DNA from: an uncultured Ruminococcus sp.
GTDB lineage: Bacteria; Bacillota_A; Clostridia; Oscillospirales; Ruminococcaceae
DNA length: 11,240 bases
Direction: 5' to 3'
Assembly: GCA_947303535.1 (NCBI GenBank)
Contig: CAMYYQ010000013.1
Span: 1 to 11,240, forward strand
In this document: one piece after another, positions 3,829-5,791 of the stretch
How the letters are laid out: every line of letters starts with the position of its first letter
How positions within the stretch are numbered: the stretch's first letter is position 1
Notes under the pieces: generated by a model
The model's database searches: none
Seen by the model: the letters and a program-made list of their open reading frames with translations, nothing else
What the model was told of the DNA's origin: nothing
Position numbers and translations under genes: made by a program

Positions 3829-4410
3829 TCAATCACCGTATCTTTCTTTAAGGAAGCTGTACAGCTCTCTGAGAGCTGCACCTCTGTGACTTATCTTGTT
3901 TTTCTCATCAGCGGTAAGCTCCGCCATAGTCCTGTCGCCCACCATGAATACAGGGTCATAGCCGAAGCCATTGGTACCACGCTGCTCATAGCCTATTGCA
4001 CCTTTGCAGTCACCTGACATGGTATCATGACCGTTTTCGTCTATGTAGGCTATAGTGCATCTGAAAGCTGCTCCGCGCTTATTCTCGGGAACGTCCTTCA
4101 TCTCCTCAAGGAGCTTTGCACAGTGCTGTCCCTCTGGAGCATATCTTGCGGAGTATACCCCGGGTCTGCCGTCCATTGCATCAACGCAGAGTCCGCTGTC
4201 GTCGGCTATTGTAGGAAGTCCTACAGCTTCATATACAGCCTTTGCCTTTATGAGTGCATTCTCCGCAAAGGTAGTGCCGTTTTCCTCAGGATCGCAGTTT
4301 GCGCCTGCTTCACGCTGAGAGAGCACCTCTATGCCGAGCGGAGCAAGTATCTCTCTTGCCTCGCGGAGCTTGTTTGCGTTATTTGTAGCCATTACCAGCT
4401 GCTTAATCAT
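3829..4410 (-). CDS. rdgB: XTP/dITP diphosphatase (RdgB/HAM1 family)
   Basis: A 193-residue nucleotide-pool sanitising enzyme. It hydrolyses dITP, ITP, dXTP and XTP to the monophosphates and pyrophosphate, which keeps deaminated purines out of nucleic acids; it acts in the cytosol with Mg2+. Family motifs are TNNANK at 9-14 (phosphate loop with K14), GTTFAENALIKA at 45-56, ADDSGLCVDAMDGRPGVYSARYA at 69-91 with the acidic pair D70-D71, GFGYDPVF at 148-155 and SHRGAA at 174-179. The length is normal. The ATG overlaps the ftsY stop by 8 bases, and its TGA directly abuts the ATG of the next gene (TGAATG), so expression is probably coupled on both sides. An RdgB homologue next to a YhbY or metallophosphatase gene is common in Clostridia. 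I see no anomaly in it. Confidence 0.97.
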   Translation of the reverse strand: MIKQLVMATNNANKLREAREILAPLGIEVLSQREAGANCDPEENGTTFAENALIKAKAVYEAVGLPTIADDSGLCVDAMDGRPGVYSARYAPEGQHCAKLLEEMKDVPENKRGAAFRCTIAYIDENGHDTMSGDCKGAIGYEQRGTNGFGYDPVFMVGDRTMAELTADEKNKISHRGAALRELYSFLKERYGD

Positions 4411-5791
4411 CGTCCTTACCTCCGAACAGTCTGCTGAAGAATCCGCGCTTTTTCTTCTTCTCAGGCTCAGCAGCAGCTTCAGGTTCTTCCTCTTCGGTCT
4501 CCTCTTCCTCTGCTTCTTCCTCAGCCTCGTCCTCTTCTTCTGACTCTTCTTCATCTTCGGTCAGCTCGCTGTCCTCAGCCTCTTCTGTATCTTCATCAGC
4601 TTCATCGTCAGACTCGTCGTCATACTCATATTCGGAATCATCTTCTGACTCTTCTTCATATTCTTCCTCAGTATCTTCCTCTTCATATTCCTCGTCATAG
4701 GACTCTTCTTCATCTTCTTCGTCCTCTGCATAAGGAATAAATGCGCCGTATTCGTTGTAATAGCCCTTTACACCGTCAACCTCAACAGTGTTGTCGTCCT
4801 CTGTCTCTTCCTCATATTCGTTTTCATCTTCATCGTATGCCTCGGCAGCTTCTTCCTCTTCTGCAAGCTCTTCGAGCTGCTCAGGTGAAGCAAAGAGTGC
4901 ATCAACGAACATATTGCTGTCAAACGGCTGCAAGTCGTCTATCTTTTCGCCTACGCCTATGAGTTTGACAGGTATGCCCAGCTCATTCTTTATGGAGATA
5001 ACGATACCGCCCTTGGCTGTACCGTCAAGCTTTGTGAGGACGATACCTGTGATAGGTGCTGTCTCGCTGAAAAGCTTAGCCTGATTTACCGCATTCTGTC
5101 CTGTTGTGGCATCAAGCACAAGGAGTATCTCACGCGAGCACTCTCCTGCCTTGTTGTCGATGATACGGTTTATCTTTTTAAGCTCCTCCATGAGGTTCTT
5201 CTTGTTGTGGAGTCGTCCTGCGGTGTCGATAACTACTACGTCGCACTCTCTTGCCTTTGCAGCTTCAAGAGCGTCGTAAACTACAGCTCCGGGGTCAGAG
5301 CCCTCTGCGTGTTTTACGATATCTACTCCTGCTCTCTGAGTCCATACCTCAAGCTGGTCTATTGCAGCTGCACGGAAGGTATCAGCAGCAGCAACGAGGA
5401 CTTTCTTCCCCTCCTGCTTGAACTGGTGGCAGAGCTTGCCGATAGTTGTGGTCTTGCCTGCTCCGTTTACACCGATCACCATAATTACAGCAGGTGATAC
5501 TGAAAGATCAAGTCCTGTATCATCGCCCATTATCTCAGAGATTACCTCATGGATAAGTCCCATTATCTCCTTAGGGTCGGTTATACCGCGTTCCTTTATC
5601 TTCTTGCGGAGTCTGTCGCATATCTCCTCAGAGGTCTCAACGCCGATATCGCTCATTATCATCTGCTCTTCGAGCTGGTCGAAAAGGTCTTCGTCAATTA
5701 CGGTAAACGAGTTGAGTACTCTCTGGATACCTCCGAAAAGGAAATCCTTGGTCTTTCTCAGACCGCTGGCAATTTTAGAAAAAAGTCCCAT
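4403..5791 (-). CDS. ftsY: Signal recognition particle receptor FtsY with a C-terminal acidic tail
   Basis: A 462-residue SRP receptor GTPase, which docks SRP-ribosome complexes at the membrane. The short N-terminal helix GLFSKIASGLRKTKD leads straight into the N domain; there is no N-terminal acidic domain. GTPase motifs are G1 GVNGAGKTTT at 107-116, DTFRAAA at 137-143, G3 DTAGR at 189-193, G4 TKLD at 253-256 and the closing IGVGEKIDDLQPF. The NG domain ends at about 301. After it comes an unusual tail: a Glu/Asp-rich region at about 304-444, broken by a tyrosine- and glycine-containing island at 336-355, then the basic amphipathic ending KKKKRGFFSRLFGGKDDD at 445-462. That ending resembles the N-terminal membrane-targeting segment of E. 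coli FtsY. The length is well above the roughly 300-330 residues usual in Firmicutes. The last codons contain the rdgB ribosome binding site, and the stop overlaps the rdgB start (ATGATTAA). The core identity is certain; the role of the tail is inferred. Confidence 0.97.
   Translation of the reverse strand: MGLFSKIASGLRKTKDFLFGGIQRVLNSFTVIDEDLFDQLEEQMIMSDIGVETSEEICDRLRKKIKERGITDPKEIMGLIHEVISEIMGDDTGLDLSVSPAVIMVIGVNGAGKTTTIGKLCHQFKQEGKKVLVAAADTFRAAAIDQLEVWTQRAGVDIVKHAEGSDPGAVVYDALEAAKARECDVVVIDTAGRLHNKKNLMEELKKINRIIDNKAGECSREILLVLDATTGQNAVNQAKLFSETAPITGIVLTKLDGTAKGGIVISIKNELGIPVKLIGVGEKIDDLQPFDSNMFVDALFASPEQLEELAEEEEAAEAYDEDENEYEEETEDDNTVEVDGVKGYYNEYGAFIPYAEDEEDEEESYDEEYEEEDTEEEYEEESEDDSEYEYDDESDDEADEDTEEAEDSELTEDEEESEEEDEAEEEAEEEETEEEEPEAAAEPEKKKKRGFFSRLFGGKDDD
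4419..4423 (-). promoter_or_regulatory. Ribosome binding site of rdgB inside the ftsY end
   Basis: GGAGG is read as the Gly-Gly codons GGA GGT of FtsY and sits 8 bases before the ATG at 4410. It selects the 193-residue start for rdgB over any start inside the acidic tract. Confidence 0.85.
4460..4882 (-). repeat. Low-complexity GAA/GAG/GAC-rich tract encoding the FtsY acidic tail
   Basis: About 420 bases made mostly of GAA, GAG and GAC codons, encoding an almost uninterrupted Glu/Asp run apart from the island at 4727-4786. Such tracts are prone to slippage and length change between strains. A shifted frame reads as Lys/Arg-rich with no stop, which explains the long apparent upstream extension of rdgB. 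Confidence 0.8.

Follow-up and report, generated by a model that had tools for sequence, protein, structure and literature searches.

An FtsY from an uncultured Ruminococcus with an acidic arm and a basic-aromatic tip at its C-terminus

FtsY is an essential receptor in membrane-protein targeting. In E. coli it is built in the order alphaA1, acidic A domain, alphaN1 and NG GTPase. In the available portions of two papers the A domain is described as N-terminal or absent (PMC2572998, PMC5533587), and in one of them the purpose of the acidic domain and its distal tip is presented as still unclear (PMC5533587). We analysed a stretch of 11,240 nucleotides (the window) from an uncultured Ruminococcus sp. 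in which the acidic arm and its tip lie C-terminal to the GTPase. This raises the question of whether the arm was moved from one end to the other or gained anew, and whether it could do the same job there. No title or abstract describing a C-terminal FtsY arm was found in the open-licence literature, among the matches listed, a body of text outside which most subscription papers lie.

The product of 4403-5791(-) is a genuine FtsY, the SRP receptor. It matched the FtsY equivalog model TIGR00064 with 361.7 bits (cutoff 260.7), above its scores with the rival GTPase models for Ffh (223.8 bits, cutoff 473.2) and FlhF (71.4 bits). Pfam placed SRP54_N at residues 18-82 and SRP54 at residues 100-300, the stretches GVNGxGKTT, DTAGR and TKLDG are invariant across a 50-sequence FtsY alignment, and the ten best Foldseek matches are all FtsY structures (TMt 0.84-0.92). 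Translation, TIGR00064 and Pfam agree with the earlier note on the coordinates, the identity, the NG domain near the N-terminus and the acidic tail. The local gene order is smc - ftsY - rdgB - yhbY, and the nearest genome (G001), which a check of copy number covered, has one FtsY and one Ffh-like match.

Coordinates of the features in the window, with the evidence for each
Feature	Position	Strand	Evidence or remark
ftsY	4403..5791	(-)	462 aa + stop; translation, Pfam and NCBIfam matches
N-terminal helix MGLFSKIASGLRKTKDFLFG, counterpart of E. coli alphaN1 at the A/N boundary	5732..5791	(-)	predicted helices 3-10, 12-27
NG GTPase core, residues 18-300	4892..5740	(-)	Pfam SRP54_N + SRP54; Foldseek to FtsY structures
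Acidic tail linker, residues 304-444	4460..4882	(-)	D/E-rich; low pLDDT; fast divergence with gaps
Mid-tail element VEVDGVKGYYNEYGAFIPYA, residues 336-355	4727..4786	(-)	predicted strands; pLDDT 84 for residues 341-350
Terminal basic-aromatic motif KKKKRGFFSRLFGG, residues 445-458	4418..4459	(-)	synonymous codon variation, tip identity
GGAGG, likely rdgB ribosome-binding site inside the last ftsY codons	4419..4423	(-)	sequence; same arrangement in relatives
smc, upstream neighbour of ftsY	5851..9423	(-)	TIGR02168, 1082 bits
rdgB (XTP/dITP diphosphatase)	3829..4410	(-)	TIGR00042, 208 bits; 8 bases shared between its start and the end of ftsY

At the N-terminus there is no acidic domain ahead of NG of the E. 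coli type, and the ATG stands directly before alphaN1. This ATG, at 5791, is preceded at a distance of five bases by GGAGG, which makes an N-terminal extension unlikely. The first residues are most likely MGLFSKIASGLRKTKD, a helix found at the A/N boundary in E. coli; residue 10 of the window's protein aligns with residue 202 of the E. coli protein (2yhs_A). At the other end, the GTPase core is well predicted in the structure model and finishes near residue 303. In E. coli, FtsY stops where the core does, the alignment running to residue 495 of 497 in 5gad_l, whereas the window's protein continues with a tail of 159 residues (304-462), of which 56% are Asp or Glu and for which pLDDT is mostly at or below 50 beyond residue 355. 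The C-terminus reads ...KKKKRGFFSRLFGGKDDD and the tail ending is EPEKKKKRGFFSRLFGGKDDD, so the earlier note's GFFSRLFGG does not stand at the very end, as KDDD comes after the motif. The E. coli N-terminus that the same note had given as KEKKRGFFSWLGFG was confirmed by MAKEKKRGFFSWLGFG in the PDB chains 5gad_l and 2yhs_A. At the level of sequence, then, a basic-aromatic tip sits at the distal end of an acidic arm, here at the C-terminus.

We also considered the tip as an amphipathic helix and dropped this reading, because the hydrophobic moment does not clearly single it out: the named 11-residue tip pieces gave 0.21-0.24, and the best window at the motif reached 0.40, whereas both the rest of the tail and the E. 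coli peptide gave 0.37. In the structure model the tip holds only a 4-residue helix, with pLDDT 56 for residues 451-460.

The C-terminus reads KKKKRGF[F/I]SRLFGGKD[D/N][D/E] in all of the 120 best homologues (of 8000 scored, window included). The set of nearest-genus genomes comprised 36. In three of them a contig end truncates the gene, and G022 is without an FtsY match; among the 32 with a readable C-terminus, 31 have an acidic tail with the tip KKxG[F/L]Fx[R/K][L/I]F. When the window was compared with 10 chosen relatives, identity was 87-99% in the core and 45-89% in the linker, with 5-37 gap positions, and the tip was identical at 13 of 13 residues in nine and at 12 of 13 in one. Moreover, across 48 tails selected because the motif is present, the fixed tip residues are encoded by several synonymous codons (five for Arg, five for Leu, three for Gly), which indicates selection on the protein. 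The isolates carrying the tail include R. flavefaciens ND2009 and SAb67. The earlier note had asked whether the tract might be misassembled or the motif vary at random, and both doubts are removed by the counts given above. That the tail is low-complexity drift or an assembly error has, in our judgement, practically no chance of being right: tandem repeats within the acidic tract speak for it, but the tail occurs in many genomes, named isolates among them (L166 and L171, R. flavefaciens), and the tip stays constant while the linker drifts.

One genome of the same genus, G017 (L085), has an FtsY with neither tail nor tip, a natural loss, and the tail has thus been dispensable at least once. In five of the 31 same-genus tails (L014, L016, L017, L023 and L027) the motif occurs twice, at the end and again at an internal site close to the core.

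To describe the spread of the layouts in Clostridia we collected loci from searches of relatives, family and order, from regions that these and a class search yielded and that were taken mostly for their long frames, and from 80 named loci. FtsY was present in 244 of the 245 sources, window included; L088 holds the tail end only. Three open frames, two partial ones and 15 duplicate cores were dropped before counting, which left 224 clostridial FtsYs. Taking at least 40 residues as a C-tail and at least 30 as an acidic N-terminal arm, 114 have no arm, 69 a C-tail and 41 an acidic N-terminal arm, counts that are biased by the inclusion of loci picked mainly for their long reading frames. By group, no arm, C-tail and N-terminal arm were found in 44, 35 and 3 of L001-L084 (window counted separately) and in 35, 25 and 11 of L165-L244; for the 80 loci L085-L164, taken mostly for long reading frames, the figures are 25, 7 and 2 in L085-L124 and 10, 1 and 25 in L125-L164. 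The short NG-only forms, found in many Oscillospirales and in Thermotoga maritima (1vma), share the NG core and the N-terminal alphaN1 with the window's protein but end with the core, lacking both the acidic tail and the tip. The forms with an N-terminal arm (MANFFKKLFGKDKE..., MALFDFFKKKK...) also bear a basic-aromatic tip on an acidic arm, but at the opposite end, and none has a C-tail.

None of the 224 proteins has both arms, whereas independence would give 12.6 (Fisher p 8e-8, ignoring relatedness). The 71 named loci, found by six patterns of which two were derived from the tail, likewise include none, against 3.9 expected (p = 0.006), and an earlier, smaller count on 163 proteins gave none either. 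One C-tail (L151) belongs to a genome in the class but outside the order, and in a survey of the phylum (139 genomes), the 20 proteins taken for their long frames contained no C-tail of at least 40 residues. The 69 C-tails end in GFFxRLF (48), FGFLFKEI (nine), FNRH (five), another basic-aromatic tip (three) or no such tip (four: L098, L170, L203 and L213, with L170 lying within the genus clade).

The overlap with rdgB offers another origin for the conserved C-terminus, namely that the ribosome-binding site and start of rdgB dictate the last ftsY codons. In the window the FGG codons contain GGAGG, and the ftsY stop overlaps with the ATG of rdgB, with similar sites in relatives. In a simple scan, 55 of the 69 C-tailed loci showed an rdgB-like start close to the ftsY end, located at or inside the ftsY stop in 46 of the 55, with letters resembling a ribosome-binding site in the last ftsY codons, and the GFFGRLFG codons of L206, L210, L215 and L235 include GGGAGG, GGGAGA or GGGCGG. 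The FNRHS/T endings of L101, L104, L110, L198 and L212 likewise fit this origin, as they are the out-of-frame RdgB start L-I-A-T-H-N. We nevertheless hold it to be highly unlikely as the general explanation. In the window, 37-49 bases separate the KKKK codons from the rdgB start downstream, too great a distance for a ribosome-binding site; the motif codons vary synonymously; internal copies of the motif begin 148-181 residues before the end, and the motif of L174 begins 49 residues before it; and L014, L016, L017 and L029 retain the motif though their rdgB start lies beyond the ftsY stop. The overlap accounts for GGKDDD in part and for FNRHS, but not for the KKKK-GFFSRLF of the genus. The FNRH-type tails (five of 69) were set aside as support for a selected tip, since their residues follow from the overlap.

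The GTPase core was then used to ask how the tail arose. One parsimony reconstruction on a FastTree tree of the core gave seven gains of a C-tail from tailless forms, one loss (from C-tail to none) and no change between N-terminal and C-terminal arms in either direction. A thinned IQ-TREE tree gave eight changes of the C state. In the AU test, a single clade of all 24 thinned C-tails, a group picked by trait after the first tree had been seen, was rejected (p about 1e-9). A clade of 15 rows, made up of the window's family and the named loci grouping there, was not rejected (p = 0.35), which leaves the number of gains inside the window's family uncertain. The C-tail is, judging from these trees, an acquisition made repeatedly, apparently about seven times, the exact number being uncertain; the C-terminal layout thus seems to have evolved several times among related gut bacteria. 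Less probably, an ancient gain was followed by many losses.

The physical relocation of the A domain from the N- to the C-terminus, by an event resembling circular permutation, we regard as barely credible. The same two modules do occur in mirrored order, and N-terminal and C-terminal forms are found within one order (L107 and L111 being N-terminal forms), but the reconstruction counts no N-to-C change against seven from none to C; the low-complexity linkers are uninformative on homology either way. Of the mirror order proposed by the earlier note, the part that stands is that the same two modules occupy the end opposite to their place in E. coli, with the GLFSKIASGLRKTK helix kept N-terminally. 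The circular permutation does not stand, given the absence of N-to-C changes and the rejection of a single C-tail clade, and "moved" or "permuted" are the wrong words; the convergence that the note had offered as its other option, a convergent gain, takes their place.

As regards function, the window's FtsY shares with that of E. coli the NG core, alphaN1, a long acidic arm and the tip KKRGFFS-x-L, the difference being that arm and tip are N-terminal in E. coli and C-terminal here. By this analogy the tail probably does the job of the E. coli A domain, as an acidic tether with an alphaA1-like tip that makes transient membrane contact. In experiments on the E. coli protein, deleting the first 14 residues (alphaA1) reduced Dynamic binding by a factor of more than 10, the transient lipid contact of alphaA1 depended on both basic and aromatic or aliphatic residues, alphaN1 made the stable contact, and the acidic A domain inhibited stable binding (PMC5533587). 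In the Ruminococcus protein, the tip would bind anionic lipid loosely through its lysines and Phe/Leu residues at the end of the long acidic tether, in what would correspond to the Dynamic contact assigned to alphaA1. The acidic linker would keep the free receptor off the membrane (auto-inhibition), and SRP binding would let alphaN1 make its stable contact, giving a two-step docking. The window's FtsY may contact the membrane at both ends, as the earlier note proposed. In favour of this reading are the constancy of the tip beside a diverging linker, the internal motif copies, the similar though not identical end peptides of different lineages, the repeated gains, the lack of proteins with both arms in the sample and the likeness to the E. 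coli tip. Against it speak the weak amphipathicity and low-confidence model of the tip, the tailless FtsY of G017 and the four C-tails that end without a basic-aromatic tip.

The tip might instead be a docking peptide for SecYEG, YidC or ribosomal RNA, with the acidic linker as a spacer. We think this unlikely, if worth keeping in view. The motif is nearly fixed in the genus, a stricter conservation than a weak contact with lipid would appear to call for, but the differing basic-aromatic tips of other lineages are easier to reconcile with loose lipid chemistry than with a single fixed site.

Taken further, the A domain would be a position-independent tether, which Oscillospirales lineages and one other clostridial family rebuilt C-terminally several times, using the available end of the apposed alphaN1/alpha7 pair and never both; the arguments for and against this wider proposal seem to us evenly balanced. 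The N and C ends of FtsY are described as apposed in the portion available of an earlier study (PMC2572998). If the proposal is true, two-step docking of the SRP receptor would reflect a physical design under selection rather than a set order of domains. That the same two parts evolved repeatedly at the other end is a natural experiment, which separates position from function. It offers a second architecture in which the two-step model of membrane docking can be tested, and leads to the prediction that E. coli constructs with their ends swapped should be functional.

Two smaller observations concern the interior of the tail. The mid-tail element VEVDGVKGYYNEYGAFIPYA is present in 86 of the 120 close homologues (the best 120 of 8000 scored) and in a few loci of the genus, and the tail of L030, which is cut by a contig end, carries a copy of the motif at an internal position on the core side.
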